DNA of 64,000 bases from Bacteroidota bacterium (GTDB taxonomy: Bacteria > Bacteroidota > Ignavibacteria > Tepidaquicellales > Tepidaquicellaceae), in NCBI GenBank assembly GCA_018266845.1, contig JAFDZO010000025.1, forward strand, positions 1-64,000, read 5' to 3'. Shown one piece after another: positions 27,307 to 60,937 of the stretch (its first letter is position 1; the number at the start of each line of letters is the position of its first letter). The translations under genes were made by a program, and so were the position numbers. The notes under the pieces are model-generated. The model was not told where the DNA came from, ran no database searches, and worked only from the letters and a program-made list of their open reading frames with translations.

Positions 27307-28792
27307 GCTGCCCACTAACCTGCTATTTAACCTCATAAAATCCCTGACAAAAGCGGAAAAAAGATACTTTACGCTCACCCATATTAGGACTGCAAAAGAT
27401 AAGAACTACTCTATTCTATTTAAGGAAATTGAAAGCCAAACTAAATCAGGTGAATACAATGAAGCTGCAATAAAGAATAAATATAAAAATGAAAAATTCG
27501 TTAAACAGCTTACGTTCACAAAAAATTACCTGCACAACATTATTGTAAAATCTTTGATTGATTTTTATTCAAATGATAATCTAGAGTATATAATTTACAA
27601 ACAAATTCTGTCTGCAAAAATTTTTTTTAGAAAATCTTTATTCGATGATTACTTTAGAGCGCTTGAGAAAGGAAAACTATTAGCTGAAAAGACCGAAAAA
27701 TTCGGAGTGCTGATAGAAATTCTTAAACTACAGATGAAATTAGTTCAGCTAAAAAACAGAAGGAAATATAAAGATAGAAATCTTTACAATGAGGAAAAAA
27801 ATGCTTTAAGGAAAATAGAAAATATTTCGGGATACAGTAAACTATTAAACACTTTTTATAGCCTCACTAAAATACCAGATTATGGCAGAAGCAAAATTCT
27901 GTATAGAGAGGCGTTGAACATATTTAACAACGAACTTCTTACACTAAAACGCAATGCTGAATCCGCGACGGCTCTTGATATGTTCTACCTTCTGAATATA
28001 TATAAAAGCGAGCTGCTGGAGGATAAAGAGAAATTATTTTCACTCTCATTAAAGAGGTACGAAGTTTACTCTAAAAATAAAGCTGCCTTTTCTTCGGACA
28101 ATGAAGACAAAGAAATGATACTGCTTTATTCACTTCTGTACTATGCTGTTCAGGCAGAGCAGTTTGATTTCTATAGAAAGCATTTAAAAGAGTATGAAAA
28201 AAAATTTCTGAGAACAAGGAATCATAAAATTGACAGACAGGAAGCTAAGAACGGATTTCATTCATTGAAAATGAACTTTGAATATAAAATCGGAAACATT
28301 AAAGAATCTGAGAAATACGCAGAAAGAGTATTTCAATATTTTAGAGAAACTGAATATGGGCAAAACAAAGATGAACTGCTTGCGTTTTACTTTCAGTATG
28401 CAAAAATATTATATGAAGGGAAAAATTATCATAAAGCGCTGGAAGTATCAAACATTATCGCAAATCACGAATATAAAACCGTACGATATGATATACTTGC
28501 ATACACCCATTTTTTGGAAATGTTTATCCACTTTGAATTAAAAAATTTTCAACTCGTCAGAAGCTATATACTTGCTATAAGCAGGAAGCTTTCTCATCAC
28601 AAAGAAAAAGAGCTGAGCGAAAAAATAATTTTGAAACTTTTATACGAACTTACCTCTGACGCAAAAAAGGATGAAGGTTTTATTCTTAAAAAGTATTATA
28701 AAAAGATTGCCGCGCTAAAAAAAAATAAATACGAAAGACCATTCTTTAACGAGCTTCCAGTGGATAAGTGGGTATTAAAAAAAATCTCTTGA
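27305..28792 (+). CDS. Hypothetical protein, 495 residues, helical
   Basis: No signal peptide or membrane segment. The sequence is almost entirely amphipathic helix rich in Lys, Glu and aromatic residues, with TPR-like spacing in the second half (for example EYGQNKDELLAFYFQYAKILYEGKNYHKAL). Its N-terminus, LIKSLTKAEKRYFTL, resembles an unnamed protein family that I recall being widespread in Bacteroidota with unknown role. Cytoplasmic helical-repeat scaffold is the best description. The start ATG at 27305 is supported by the N-terminal motif but lacks any ribosome-binding site. Confidence 0.8.
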   Translation: MLPTNLLFNLIKSLTKAEKRYFTLTHIRTAKDKNYSILFKEIESQTKSGEYNEAAIKNKYKNEKFVKQLTFTKNYLHNIIVKSLIDFYSNDNLEYIIYKQILSAKIFFRKSLFDDYFRALEKGKLLAEKTEKFGVLIEILKLQMKLVQLKNRRKYKDRNLYNEEKNALRKIENISGYSKLLNTFYSLTKIPDYGRSKILYREALNIFNNELLTLKRNAESATALDMFYLLNIYKSELLEDKEKLFSLSLKRYEVYSKNKAAFSSDNEDKEMILLYSLLYYAVQAEQFDFYRKHLKEYEKKFLRTRNHKIDRQEAKNGFHSLKMNFEYKIGNIKESEKYAERVFQYFRETEYGQNKDELLAFYFQYAKILYEGKNYHKALEVSNIIANHEYKTVRYDILAYTHFLEMFIHFELKNFQLVRSYILAISRKLSHHKEKELSEKIILKLLYELTSDAKKDEGFILKKYYKKIAALKKNKYERPFFNELPVDKWVLKKIS

Positions 28793-28815
28793 CAAATAAA
28801 TTTATTCTGTTTATG

Positions 28816-28841
28816 TTTGTTGTAGTTTGAACTACGACATA
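28816..28841. promoter_or_regulatory. Palindromic element shared with 46430-46453
   Basis: GTAGTTTGAACTAC at 28822-28835 (6-bp arms GTAGTT/AACTAC) is embedded in TTTGTTGTAGTT...CTACGACATA. The reverse complement of 46430-46453, upstream of the DUF4382 lipoprotein gene, reads nearly the same over 24 bases. Here it lies 54 bp before the 34-residue membrane peptide. TAGTTTGA within it resembles the TAnnTTTG promoter element, so the palindrome may be an operator over a promoter. Confidence 0.55.
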
Positions 28842-28894: not shown

Positions 28895-28999
28895 ATGAAA
28901 ACACAAAAGCAACTTAAAAAAGACAGCTTCGAGATTGGCTCAATTGCTATCGTTGTTTCTTTAATAACGGTACTTGTTGTCGGCTTTATAGTCAGGTAA
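28895..28999 (+). CDS. 34-residue single-pass membrane peptide
   Basis: ATG at 28895, TAA at 28997-28999. Product starts MKTQKQLKKDSFEIGSIAIV and continues into a hydrophobic run (SIAIVVSLITVLVVGFIV) ending with Arg: a basic N-terminus followed by one membrane helix. It follows the palindromic element at 28816 and precedes a strong inverted repeat at 29015 and the cupredoxin gene. Either a real small membrane protein or a leader peptide; no family recognised. Confidence 0.5.
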   Translation: MKTQKQLKKDSFEIGSIAIVVSLITVLVVGFIVR

Positions 29000-29104: not shown

Positions 29105-29737
29105 ATGAAAAAAATCTTATTCAGCTTTATCTTCACAATCTTCATTGTTTCAAACTCATTTGCAACAATCAGAACAGTCAATGTATCGAACTTCAGCTTT
29201 ACTCCTTCAACTGTAAATGCCTTTGTAGGTGATACTATTAAGTTTCAGTGGGTTAGCGGTTCTCATACGACCACTTGCAATGGCACAAATGGAACCTCTT
29301 TACCGGCAGGAGCTGCTTCTTGGAACGCAAACATGTCGAGCGGCGCACCAACATTTTTATATAAAATTACGGTTGCCGGTAATTACCATTATGTCTGTTT
29401 ACCCCATGCACCTGATATGGCAGGAGATATTGTTGCAACTGTATCGGGGGTAAACTCTATTAGCTCCTTAGCAGATGTATTTAGTCTTTCTCAAAATTAT
29501 CCAAACCCATTTAACCCGACAACAAAAATAAACTTCAGCATTGCAAAAGCCGGGTTTGTTTCCTTGAAAGTATATGATATTCTAGGCAACGAAGTTAGCA
29601 GCATAGTAAACGAGCAGCTTTCTCAAGGAGCTTATTCAGTTGATTTTAACGGAAGCGCCCTTTCAAGCGGTGTTTATTTCTATAGGATTAGAACTTCAGA
29701 TTTCAGTGAAGTTAAAAGAATGTACTTAGTAAAGTAA
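29105..29737 (+). CDS. Secreted cupredoxin-like (blue copper) protein with T9SS tail
   Basis: 210 residues. Signal peptide MKKILFSFIFTIFIVSNSFA. A plastocyanin-like domain, about 21-112, shows the type 1 copper ligands in order: His54 (SGSHTTT), then Cys98, His101 and Met105 in YVCLPHAPDM. A T9SS type A sorting domain follows (QNYPNPFNPTTKI, SGVYFYRI, KRMYLVK). It probably carries electrons or holds copper at the cell surface (inference). Followed by a strong terminator, so monocistronic or joined only to the 34-residue peptide upstream. Confidence 0.88.
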   Translation: MKKILFSFIFTIFIVSNSFATIRTVNVSNFSFTPSTVNAFVGDTIKFQWVSGSHTTTCNGTNGTSLPAGAASWNANMSSGAPTFLYKITVAGNYHYVCLPHAPDMAGDIVATVSGVNSISSLADVFSLSQNYPNPFNPTTKINFSIAKAGFVSLKVYDILGNEVSSIVNEQLSQGAYSVDFNGSALSSGVYFYRIRTSDFSEVKRMYLVK

Positions 29738-45678: not shown

Positions 45679-46404
45679 TTAGTTATCGTCCGGTACTCCG
45701 TTTTTATCGTCATCCCTGAATGCCTTCTTGAACGAACCTTTAATATTATCATCTATTTCATTTTCGTTTGAGCCGTTGTTAGGGTCTAATGTATTGCTGC
45801 CGCTCAAGAACCACTTAGTCTTATCGAAAAGAACTGTGATATTTGATTTAGAACCGTGATTTAATGTTGAGTTTAGATTAATTACAATGTTAACTGTTTT
45901 TTTTGATTTATATACAAAAGGAGCGCTGTTGTAATTTCCTTTTACTATGAATGAATATCTCAAGTTACCGCTTGAGCCTTCTCTAAACTCCGGGTCAGGA
46001 ATAGTTTCATTCTCTTCAGGTTTGTGAAGCTGGAATTTTATCTTCTTGTATCTTCCCGCCGGAATTATACCGGATGTCATAGCTTTTAATACACCTGCTG
46101 TATTTAATTGAACCACAATCGGTCCTACTTTAATGCTTTTTGATGAACTGTCAGATTCCACTTCTATTTCTGTAAGCAAGCCCTTTGCTTCGTTAATTTC
46201 AAGACCTGCATTATCTCCGATATTATCGGATGACATTACACTTACTGACATGTTATCATCAGAACCGGTGCCCGTTCCGGTTGTGGAAGTGGTTACGGGA
46301 TTATTACTGCATCCCGAAAGAACAAACATTGCGATGACAGTTAAGGCTAAAAGCAATGTTACCGCCTGACTAACGTTTGAGGGATTTAGTTTTACTGCTT
46401 TCAT
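45679..46404 (-). CDS. DUF4382 lipoprotein
   Basis: 241 residues from ATG 46404. This start gives a lipoprotein signal (TLLLALTVIAMFVLSGCSNN, lipidated Cys in LSGC); the longer frame from 46461 adds only a Cys-rich stretch. After a Thr/Ser linker comes a DUF4382 domain (GLLTEIEVESDSS, VQLNTAGVLKAMTSGIIPAGRYKKIKFQL). Exported lipid-anchored protein of unknown function, ending in a linker rich in Asp/Asn (DDDKNGVPDDN). The palindrome at 46430 lies 26 nt upstream. Confidence 0.78.
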   Translation of the reverse strand: MKAVKLNPSNVSQAVTLLLALTVIAMFVLSGCSNNPVTTSTTGTGTGSDDNMSVSVMSSDNIGDNAGLEINEAKGLLTEIEVESDSSSKSIKVGPIVVQLNTAGVLKAMTSGIIPAGRYKKIKFQLHKPEENETIPDPEFREGSSGNLRYSFIVKGNYNSAPFVYKSKKTVNIVINLNSTLNHGSKSNITVLFDKTKWFLSGSNTLDPNNGSNENEIDDNIKGSFKKAFRDDDKNGVPDDN

Positions 46405-46429: not shown

Positions 46430-46453
46430 ATGTCGTAGCTTGAACTACAACAA
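46430..46453. promoter_or_regulatory. Palindromic element upstream of DUF4382 lipoprotein, shared with 28816-28841
   Basis: GTAGCTTGAACTAC at 46435-46448, imperfect palindrome. Read on the minus strand the surrounding sequence is TTGTTGTAGTTCAAGCTACG, which matches 28818-28837 in 18 of 20 positions. It ends 26 nt before the ATG at 46404. Confidence 0.55.
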
Positions 46454-46504
46454 AAATGCAAATAATAAAATTAAATGTCAATACCCTTTCAAAAAATTTT
46501 TCCT

Positions 46505-46776
46505 AAAATGTCGCATTTTTGTCGCATTCTTTAATTGCAGGCTACAATTGGGGTTTTTAATTGATAATACTCTCTTTAAAAGTAACATTATTGTAACATT
46601 TTGCAGCGGTACGGATGAAAAGTAGTACACAAAATGTCGGGTTTTTGCCGCATTCTTGAATTATAGTTTATAATTAAGGTTTTCAATAAATAAAAACTCT
46701 GTTAAGAAGTAACATTATTGTAACATTTTGCAGCGGTACGGATGAAAAAGTATTACACAATATGCTGCATTCTCCA
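46505..46776. repeat. Tandem ~127-bp imperfect repeat in the 609-bp intergenic region 46405-47013
   Basis: Two nearly full copies start at 46505 and 46631, and a partial third at about 46759, about 126-128 bp apart. The last 41 bases of the conserved segment (from 46581 and from 46708) are identical; the first part is only moderately similar. Each contains the GTAACA direct repeat with 11-bp period and, 50-51 bp later, an AAAATG or AATATG element. The rest of the gap holds the palindromes at 46430 and 46934 but no gene. Confidence 0.75.
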
Positions 46777-46933: not shown

Positions 46934-46955
46934 TACCTATTAGTACTAATAGGTA
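46934..46955. promoter_or_regulatory. Perfect 22-bp palindrome upstream of 47014
   Basis: TACCTATTAGT followed directly by its reverse complement ACTAATAGGTA, a perfect 11-bp dyad with no spacer. It lies 58 bp before the ATG of 47014 and is of the size of a dimeric repressor operator. No cognate regulator is recognisable in the window. Confidence 0.6.
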
Positions 46956-47013: not shown

Positions 47014-48222
47014 ATGATTATTGCCGTAAAATGCCCTTCCTGTAACGCCAATTTAGAGATTCCAGATGACGTGGAATTCATAAACTGTGAGTATTGCGGA
47101 ACCTCAATTAAAGTGAGGGAGATTGTAAGAGTTGAAACGGATTATGATGTGCCGGAATGGATTAAAATTGCTGATAACGCATATAAGGGAAAAAATTACG
47201 ACGAGGCGTACGAATATTACAACATGATTCTTGAAAAAGAGTCTTACCGGTCAAACGCATGGATTGGAAAAGGGCTTGCTGCGGGTCGCTTATCCGATAA
47301 CTATGAGCCGAGATTTGAAGAAATGAATCAGCTTGTTAAATACGGCATCAGTATTTCAGATGAAAAAAAGAAAAATGGAGAGCTGTCGAATGCAAAAAGA
47401 GAAATTCTTTCAATGCTTCAGGATTATTATAAAAATATTAAAACGGATGTTTTCAACTCAGCAAATGAATTTGATGAATACATAAATAGCTGTAAACCTT
47501 TTATTGAGGCATGCGGAAATTCTTATCAGAATTTTTTCACCAACGATTTAATCTTTATCAAGTTTTACAGTACAGCTTTGAGAAGCCTTGTGCAAAAAAA
47601 TTTTATAAACTCTGCCGAAACACGCAAGACAATTGAAATAAAAGACCCCCTGCGAAGAGAGTATAGAAACAAGCTAAGGGAGTTAGAAAAAGAAATTAAA
47701 ATTAATGACAGCAAGTATGTTACTTTTGATGAGTTTGAACGGAAAACAAAAATAGCAAAACTGCTTATTAGCGGCGCCGGAGTTGTGGTGTTAATTTTTC
47801 TAATCATTACGGGAGTAAACTACTTCACCAAAATTGCATCTCAAAATAAATCTAAAGCTACACAGGAAGATTCTGTTACAAATAGCAAGCAAACGGAAGC
47901 AGGTTATGAAATAATAAACAAATCGCTAAAGAATAAGAAAATTATCTATACTATTTATACAGAAACCGATAATCTATCCGATATTCAAAAATATGCGGAT
48001 GCTTTGATAGAAAGAGATAAGAAGCAATTTGAATTGATAACGCTCTACTTCTTATCCGATAAAAATGAAGCTAATGATTTAGGCGGGAGAGATATTCAGC
48101 TGAAAAATAGCAATAAAAACATGCCGAATTCTTTTTCAGCGCGGGTAAAATATACTAAAGGGAAAACCGCAAAAGAACTAAGCTATTACGAAAAGAATAA
48201 GCTGATATCGGAAAGTTATTAA
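47014..48222 (+). CDS. Zinc-ribbon, TPR-like membrane protein
   Basis: 402 residues. N-terminal zinc ribbon with Cys7, Cys10, Cys25, Cys28 (CPSC...CEYC). TPR-like region at about 50-180 (AYKGKNYDEAYEYYNMILEKESYRSNAW). Coiled coil at about 215-245, one membrane segment at about 248-270 (LISGAGVVVLIFLIITGV), then about 130 residues beyond the membrane that form an alpha/beta domain. Family not recognised; a membrane sensor or assembly factor is possible. The 22-bp palindrome lies upstream. Confidence 0.7.
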   Translation: MIIAVKCPSCNANLEIPDDVEFINCEYCGTSIKVREIVRVETDYDVPEWIKIADNAYKGKNYDEAYEYYNMILEKESYRSNAWIGKGLAAGRLSDNYEPRFEEMNQLVKYGISISDEKKKNGELSNAKREILSMLQDYYKNIKTDVFNSANEFDEYINSCKPFIEACGNSYQNFFTNDLIFIKFYSTALRSLVQKNFINSAETRKTIEIKDPLRREYRNKLRELEKEIKINDSKYVTFDEFERKTKIAKLLISGAGVVVLIFLIITGVNYFTKIASQNKSKATQEDSVTNSKQTEAGYEIINKSLKNKKIIYTIYTETDNLSDIQKYADALIERDKKQFELITLYFLSDKNEANDLGGRDIQLKNSNKNMPNSFSARVKYTKGKTAKELSYYEKNKLISESY

Positions 48223-59311: not shown

Positions 59312-60937
59312 TTATTTAGCTTGCAAGTTTCTCTTTCGGATTCTTCTTTGGTTTAGTTTGTATAAACCGAATAATAAGATTAGAGCCGGAGGCAATATTC
59401 TATTTAGCCAGACGACAAACATCTTTGTGCTGTCGGATTTCTCATCTAAAGGCGATTCAGAAGTTTCCTTGCTTCTGATTTCAGCCAAACCTACGTCGTC
59501 CACCAGATAATCAACCATGTTTACAAAGAAAGTAATGTTATCTGCGGGAGGTCTATTCTCTTCATTTGCAAAATCGCCATCGCCGATAACTACCATTCTT
59601 GATTCCTTTTGAGATTCATTAAACGGCACTACAGTAAATGGAGTTGAACCGGCTGCTGTATCTTTCGGAGGGGTTTTGCCGGCAAAATAACTCTTAAAGC
59701 TGCCTTCAAAAATTGCCCCTACCATTAAATTTTTCATATTAAATAAAGTGTCAGCGGCTTTTTTATCCATAGATTGGAATTGCTCCAAATTAAGGATAAA
59801 GAAGTCTTTCGCCAACCCTGATTTATCTGAAGAAAGCAGAAGCGGTTTTATTTTTACATTCTTACCCGCTGCCACGGAAGTATCTATTGTGCTCGCAAAC
59901 GTTAATGTTACACTCGCAATATTATTAAATGCAGGATTAGTTCTGTTGATATTAGTAATCATCGGGAAGTAAGGATACTTCATAGAAATAGGAATGCCAA
60001 TCTGAGACTGAACCTGAACAGATGAACAATTCAAATCCCTGACTAAATCGCTGCTGATGCGTATCCCGTAGTTAGCAAGAAAATCATCAAGCCCCAGTTT
60101 TGTAACATCTCCAATTACAATCTGCTGCTGGAAATTCGGCACAACCTTATTAATCAGCCATGCTATTCTTCCGCCTCTCATTATGTATTGGTCAAGCATA
60201 AACAATTGTGTTTCCTTAAGCTCAGTCTTAGGGCTGAAAACTATTAATGCCGAAATATCATCCGGCACAGCTTTATTCAAAGAAACGTCAACAGTTTGCA
60301 AATCATACTGGGCAGAAAGTATCTGATTAATCCTATTCATTTTCTTATAATCTGTTTCATCGTTCCCCATTAAAAATCCTATTTTCTTCTTCTTTTCCGT
60401 TGTCATTTTTTTAATCATGGAAGTAATTTCATACTCCAGATTATTCGTAGATTGAACTACCGGAATAATCTCCTGCTTGCCTCCATATAAGAACACTAAT
60501 CCGACATAAATCTTTTTCACTTCCATCTTATTATTATCAGAAACCTGAATCTGAACCGGCTGAATTCCATACTTTTCAGCCTCTTTCTGCAATTCATTAT
60601 TCTGCCCTTCTATTTCAGAACCGCCTGTCGGATTATAAAACTCGTAATTCAAATTACCCTTTGAATACGAGCGATAGTCATTTAATAAATCCTGAATATC
60701 TCTTTTAAGATTATTGTATGGCGGAGGAAGCCCGTCGCTGAAATAGCCCTTTATGACTAATTTATCTTCAAGACCCTTTACAATGTCTTTACTGATTGGG
60801 GAGAGTGTATATGATTTATTTTTTGATAAATCCACTCTGGTAAATACTCTTGTGCTGATTATATTAACTACAATTATTATCGCAATAATAACCGATATTG
60901 TAAGTATTGCTTGTTTTTTTGAACTATTTTTATTCAT
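59312..60937 (-). CDS. GldG-like ABC transporter auxiliary protein
   Basis: 541 residues. One N-terminal membrane helix (LTISVIIAIIIVVNIISTRV), a large periplasmic region (VDLSKNKSYTLSPISKDIVKGLEDKLVIKGYFS near the start, ALIVFSPKTEL and GGRIAWLINKV later) of the GldG/ABC_transp_aux type, and one C-terminal helix (ILPPALILLFGLYKL). In Flavobacterium GldG works with GldA and GldF in gliding; here the role is inferred. Second-last gene of the four-gene unit. Confidence 0.88.
   Translation of the reverse strand: MNKNSSKKQAILTISVIIAIIIVVNIISTRVFTRVDLSKNKSYTLSPISKDIVKGLEDKLVIKGYFSDGLPPPYNNLKRDIQDLLNDYRSYSKGNLNYEFYNPTGGSEIEGQNNELQKEAEKYGIQPVQIQVSDNNKMEVKKIYVGLVFLYGGKQEIIPVVQSTNNLEYEITSMIKKMTTEKKKKIGFLMGNDETDYKKMNRINQILSAQYDLQTVDVSLNKAVPDDISALIVFSPKTELKETQLFMLDQYIMRGGRIAWLINKVVPNFQQQIVIGDVTKLGLDDFLANYGIRISSDLVRDLNCSSVQVQSQIGIPISMKYPYFPMITNINRTNPAFNNIASVTLTFASTIDTSVAAGKNVKIKPLLLSSDKSGLAKDFFILNLEQFQSMDKKAADTLFNMKNLMVGAIFEGSFKSYFAGKTPPKDTAAGSTPFTVVPFNESQKESRMVVIGDGDFANEENRPPADNITFFVNMVDYLVDDVGLAEIRSKETSESPLDEKSDSTKMFVVWLNRILPPALILLFGLYKLNQRRIRKRNLQAK

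Follow-up and report, generated by a model that had tools for sequence, protein, structure and literature searches.

Palindromic operators and autoregulation are already known in the TrmB family of regulators, autoregulation having been proposed for Tgr of the Thermococcales (PMC4158304). The same source describes TrmBL2 as a chromosomal protein that binds coding as well as intergenic DNA and, in a table, lists a conserved DNA-contacting tyrosine (Y49-Y61) for archaeal members of the family. In Flavobacterium, the TAnnTTTG promoter box spans positions -12 to -5 (PMC9723704). A search of the open-access literature for TrmB regulators in Ignavibacteria found nothing. Here, in a 64,000-nt stretch of DNA from an uncultured member of that class (the window), two promoters share a palindrome that, judged from sequence comparisons, is very probably (probability about 0.85) the DNA operator of an autoregulated, TrmBL2-like repressor of the TrmB family.

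A sequence-only reading of the window had reported one palindrome in two promoter regions and proposed a common operator. Both copies lie where it placed them, GTAGTTTGAACTAC at 28822-28835 and GTAGCTTGAACTAC at 46435-46448 (plus strand for both), the latter reading GTAGTTCAAGCTAC on the minus strand, toward its gene. The element common to the two copies exceeds the palindrome and has the form TTGTTGTAG-N6-CTACGACAT (28817-28840, plus strand; 46430-46453, minus strand), and both palindromes belong to a full element of 23 bp, TTGTYGTAGN6CTACRACA. The predicted operator copies are TTGTTGTAGTTTGAACTACGACA (28817-28839, plus strand) and TTGTTGTAGTTCAAGCTACGACA (46431-46453, minus strand), each defined by its sequence, the genome-wide pattern, and a model match. 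Aligned toward their genes, the window copies share TTGACA, an AT-rich spacer of equal length, the TTTG box, and then TTGTTGTAGTTYRARCTACGACATA, and beyond promoter and operator they diverge in sequence. That the two sites share one operator is strongly supported, at the level of sequence, by the genome pattern, a model of promoter plus operator, the link to a regulator gene, and the tree of that regulator's homologues, all described below.

Allowing up to two mismatches, the 14-mer has five matches in the window, compared to 0.48 in shuffled sequences. The similar 14-mer that had been noticed inside a coding region is indeed coding, at 60447-60460; it has neither the TTGT and ACA flanks nor a promoter and is unrelated to the operator. 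This match sits in a longer near-inverted repeat, GATTATTC..GAATAATC (60436-60470), within the ORF at 59312-60937 (minus strand). Two other repeats occur near the second promoter. Upstream of the lipoprotein promoter, at 46492-46748, a direct repeat is present in two neighbouring copies, 126-127 nt from start to start and 74% and 93% alike in two stretches, and a second, perfect palindrome of 20 bp, ACCTATTAGTACTAATAGGT (46935-46954), precedes the ORF at 47014 (plus strand). With at most one mismatch, this palindrome has five sites in the same genome, two in the relative G001, and none in the other 38 relatives (control, 0), with varied contexts downstream.

Both window operators overlie a promoter of the Bacteroidota type (TTGACA ... 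TAnnTTTG), covering the -7 box and the predicted transcript start, with TTGACA upstream of both elements at identical spacing. In the first promoter, the -33 element TTGACA occupies 28789-28794 and the -7 element TATGTTTG, of the TAnnTTTG consensus, 28812-28819 (plus strand), with a three-base overlap with the operator; in the second, the -33 element TTGACA, read from the window sequence, is at 46476-46481 and the -7 element CATTTTTG, one base off TAnnTTTG with CA in place of TA, at 46451-46458 (minus strand), both -7 elements being placed by the site alignment. The sequence-only reading was mistaken in taking TAGTTTGA for a degenerate -7 element, as it lies inside the palindrome and the real box is just upstream. 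The alignment covers 23 of the 28 promoter-bearing sites (five closely similar sites from the f2 genomes were left out); in all 23, TTG in the -33 element and TTTG in the -7 element are invariant and the palindrome begins with the three bases that end the -7 box, and TA stands 1-2 nt ahead of TTTG in nearly all. Transferring the position of the box from Flavobacterium puts the likely transcript starts at A28824 and A46446, from which the operator would span about -7 to +16.

The pattern TTGTNGTAGN6CTACNACA occurs at four places in the genome that holds the window (G000; 3.53 Mb, 98% complete), where the reversed pattern is absent and base composition predicts about 0.008 occurrences. Across a comparison set of 40 relatives (132 Mb, G000 included), it is found at 30 distinct places in 18 genomes, compared to none in any of the 40 for the reversed control and about 0.3 expected by composition. 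At 27 of the 30 places, the sequence 27 or 28 nt upstream holds a TTG-A/C-C/A element (one mirror-strand row, L049, minus strand, was discarded from this listing of promoter spacing), the exceptions being a site in G028 (TTGCT), one on G018:C122 (assembly Ns), and G014:C2:813142, which has no visible promoter and an imperfect right arm. The sequence model of promoter plus operator returns exactly four strong sites in G000 (E 3.4e-13 to 2.2e-11), two of them in the window, and the next non-mirror match (E 0.009) covers the promoter part only. The many unrelated intragenic hits that the sequence-only reading had named as grounds for abandoning a common operator were not seen in this genome search. 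Three weak or odd model matches were left out of the membership (G001:C1:211331, G018:C160:6545, and G014:C2:542097). The second of these (L257, 6545-6589, minus strand) is an operator-like site before a gene for a Rieske-like protein, with no clear TTGACA or -33 element, and the third (L254, 542097-542151, minus strand) is a strong promoter and operator site (E 3.2e-9) followed by nothing more than a 19-aa ORF and a terminator-like stretch, and possibly produces a small regulated transcript. A further match, G018:C122:6214, lies across an N gap from a counted site and is presumably an assembly duplicate.

The third site in G000 lies 22 nt before the gene for a 283-aa winged-helix protein of the TrmB family (G000:C41:92605-93453; L003:1543-2394), whose match to PF01978 in Pfam (residues 8-75) passes the gathering score (65.1 bits; cut-off, 25.6). 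In each of the 18 site-bearing genomes, a homologue of this regulator has one site 4-341 nt upstream, at a distance of 4-10 nt in 13 f2 genomes, 22-24 nt in two genomes, and 193-341 nt in three genomes with a small peptide ORF in between. In these three (G004, G018, and G014; L065, L067, and L102), a second, weaker copy, TTGTCGTAG..AACAACA, is present after the peptide ORF and before the regulator gene. A maximum-likelihood tree was built from 94 homologues, omitting weak matches (<80 bits) and one broken copy (G020:C222); in it, the site stands before 18 of the 20 members of one clade and before none of the 74 others, such that the operator recurs in the regulator's own promoter across orthologues, as expected under autoregulation. 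The fork that sets off the 20 has modest support (92/65). Of the two members without the site, one (G039) is truncated by a contig end and the other (G003, 77% complete) truly lacks it, with a clade regulator that is 62% identical, no such palindrome upstream, and none elsewhere in the genome. Among the f2 genomes, the exact site is confined to the regulator gene (13 of 13 sites).

An AlphaFold model of the regulator (pLDDT 86.6) has TrmBL2 as its best structural match, with an E-value of 2.8e-18 and a TM-score of 0.62 for 5bpd and a Z-score of 17.2 over 252 residues (rmsd 5.6) for 5bpi. The match to the TrmB structure 2f5t is limited to the PLD-like part of the C-terminal domain (130 aligned residues; Z 13.1, rmsd 2.6). 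The effector/sugar-binding domain PF11495 is not among the Pfam matches of the regulator at E ≤ 0.01, and against the NCBIfam TrmBL2 equivalog NF041141 the protein scores 41.9 of 530 bits, missing the cut-off. Y47 is invariant in 27 of 27 sequences and is a candidate counterpart of the conserved tyrosine Y50. EnfR was considered as a relative and rejected, as it is described as a Tfx-family protein and has a different fold (PMC10570040).

The genes behind the window palindromes are those that had been described. Operator 1 is followed by a 34-aa peptide with a single TM segment (28895-28999, plus strand), identified as an ORF, and then by a cupredoxin with a Por tail for type IX secretion (29105-29737, plus strand), identified by domain searches, while operator 2 precedes a DUF4382-like lipoprotein (45679-46404, minus strand), for which the Pfam match to DUF4382, at 16.9 bits (E 0.0077), is short of the gathering score of 25 bits. 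The fourth site in G000 lies before an envelope-type membrane operon (L032:6638-9959), behind a gene that, from a reading of its sequence, we take to be guaA. The operon encodes a multi-TM protein, a 1-TM protein with two predicted Ig-like domains, and an outer-membrane-like protein, and its first gene is matched in 37 of the 40 relatives. The layout recalls the type IX motor GldL/GldM, an identity that could not be confirmed; the first two proteins have no match to NCBIfam GldL/GldM at E ≤ 1, a search of PDB profiles gave no match to GldM, and nothing in G000 exceeds the cut-off for GldL/GldM, a weak test given that 14 control genomes likewise all fall below it. The model of the second protein has poor confidence outside of the two Ig-like domains and matches cadherins generically.

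The same four units carry the site in G001, and G004, G018, and G014 have it at the regulator, lipoprotein, and membrane-operon promoters, with one changed base at the operon site of G014. In all five genomes, from three genera, the site is carried by the regulator or its peptide, by the lipoprotein, before whose orthologue the operator is kept in the four relatives, and by the membrane operon. A single-TM peptide of 34-36 aa, similar to that of the window in the four other genomes, is the first gene behind one site in each of the five, preceding the cupredoxin in two and the regulator in three, and in G004 and G018 a cupredoxin gene with a Por-like tail carries a diverged version of the site. 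Outside of the five genomes, the site was found before none of the 24 lipoprotein and none of the 25 membrane-operon loci that could be read; 30 loci of each were taken among the matches listed, the reading extended 170 nt from a start codon chosen by script, and one lipoprotein locus was short of upstream sequence. Evidence for the wider regulon comes from five genomes, all in one family. From gene content, it may be guessed that the targets (a small membrane peptide, an exported cupredoxin, a lipoprotein, an envelope operon, and an exported beta-propeller) share a role in envelope or export homeostasis or in extracellular redox work.

In the proposed mechanism, a dimer of the regulator would bind the half-sites TTGTYGTAG and CTACRACA. 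As these extend over the end of the -7 box and the predicted start, RNA polymerase would be kept off. The regulator would in this way repress its own gene and three promoters, those of the 34-aa peptide and cupredoxin, the DUF4382-like lipoprotein, and the membrane operon, until it is released by some signal, for which the PLD-like C-terminal domain is a possible sensor. The link between regulator and operator can be held with high confidence, and repression, of the targets as well as of the regulator itself, is the probable sign of regulation by analogy with archaeal relatives in the TrmB family.

Other explanations of the palindrome were weighed against this mechanism. The one match to the 14-mer in a coding region might point to chance resemblance or a dispersed repeat, but a reversed control that is empty in all 40 genomes, 30 places where composition predicts about 0.3 in 132 Mb, and the divergence of the window copies outside promoter and operator all argue against it, and this explanation was rejected, also in view of the four-site result of the model, as having a negligible probability. 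The palindrome could also act at the RNA level, as a 5'-terminal hairpin of the mRNA (a leader element, stability stem, or attenuator), and a transcript that held it whole would fold well (-12.7 kcal/mol; z -2.64). However, the predicted start inside the palindrome would leave the left arm untranscribed, and neither predicted leader is more stably folded than shuffled sequences are. Pairing in the stem is not kept: of the 23 sites, 5 have an unpaired C and A at one position and 2 are unpaired at a second, and covariation is no greater than in shuffles. The C or T tolerated in the left arm changes independently of the A or G tolerated in the right, the behaviour to be expected if the arms are two DNA half-sites. 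Rfam has no family at the palindromes and identifies only four tRNAs in the window. With pairing, covariation, leader folding, and Rfam all against it, the hairpin was rejected as very improbable.

The two remaining alternatives accept a DNA operator. Many bacterial factors use inverted repeats of this kind, and the site could belong to another transcription factor for which the TrmB-like gene is one target among others; this is improbable, as the exact sites in the f2 genomes occur only at the regulator gene and the type of operator follows the regulator clade, observations that autoregulation fits best. Slightly less improbable, though still unlikely, is that the regulator acts through the site as an activator, since activation is known among TrmB relatives (PMC4158304). 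Against this, the site coincides with the -7 box and predicted start, where relatives repress according to the same source, the placing of activator sites being only implied there. Repression by the TrmBL2-like regulator at its own operator remains the preferred reading.

Other clades of the tree have different palindromes at the same place in the promoter (e.g., TTGTATTAG..CTAATACAA, TTGTTGTCG..CGACGGCAA, and GCCGTAGTTAAAnnGACGGC), and operator types, in a rough grouping based on patterns, cluster on the tree with 9 changes, compared to a mean of 29.2 for shuffled labels. The GCCGTAG type belongs to a clade adjoining that of our regulator and is also found before genes of the DUF4382-like lipoprotein family in f2 loci, and the beta-propeller gene behind the GCCGTAG-type regulator resembles, as judged by eye, the one behind our regulator in f1. 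A tentative scenario is that a TrmBL2-like protein, a chromatin component in archaea, radiated in the Ignavibacteria into site-specific repressors that address themselves, with each paralogue clade owning a distinct palindrome at its own transcript start and several having genes for exported or type IX-tagged proteins behind them. The window palindrome would be the address of one such repressor, with a regulon of envelope and export genes in which the 34-36-aa peptide may report the state of the membrane or of export back to the regulator.

What was an unexplained pair of repeats becomes a regulator, operator, and regulon that can be tested, in a group of which few regulators have been studied, and the paralogous regulators with matched operators offer a natural series from which the DNA-recognition code of the TrmB family could be read. 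A bacterial TrmBL2-like repressor, its operator, and its envelope and export targets appear to be undescribed in the open-access literature, and the findings suggest that Ignavibacteria control envelope and export genes through a type of regulator whose study has otherwise concerned sugar metabolism and chromatin in archaea. Compared to the sigma-A promoter of the Bacteroidota (TTG / TAnnTTTG; PMC9723704), the aligned sites have the same -33 and -7 elements, and the palindrome is added on top of the promoter rather than being a part of it. The regulator resembles TrmBL2 (TK0471 / PF0496 of the Thermococcales) in full-length fold, length (264 aa, compared to 283 aa here), TrmB winged helix, and a PLD-like C-terminal domain with no sugar-binding domain found, but unlike TrmBL2 it would act site-specifically, at few promoters, and in a bacterium. 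It shares with TrmB and TrmBL1/Tgr of the Thermococcales a palindromic promoter operator and, putatively, repression by polymerase block (PMC4158304), whereas those regulators recognize TACTN3AGTA and TATCACN5GTGATA rather than TTGTYGTAGN6CTACRACA and combine an effector domain with regulons of sugar metabolism in place of the envelope and export genes that are the proposed targets here.
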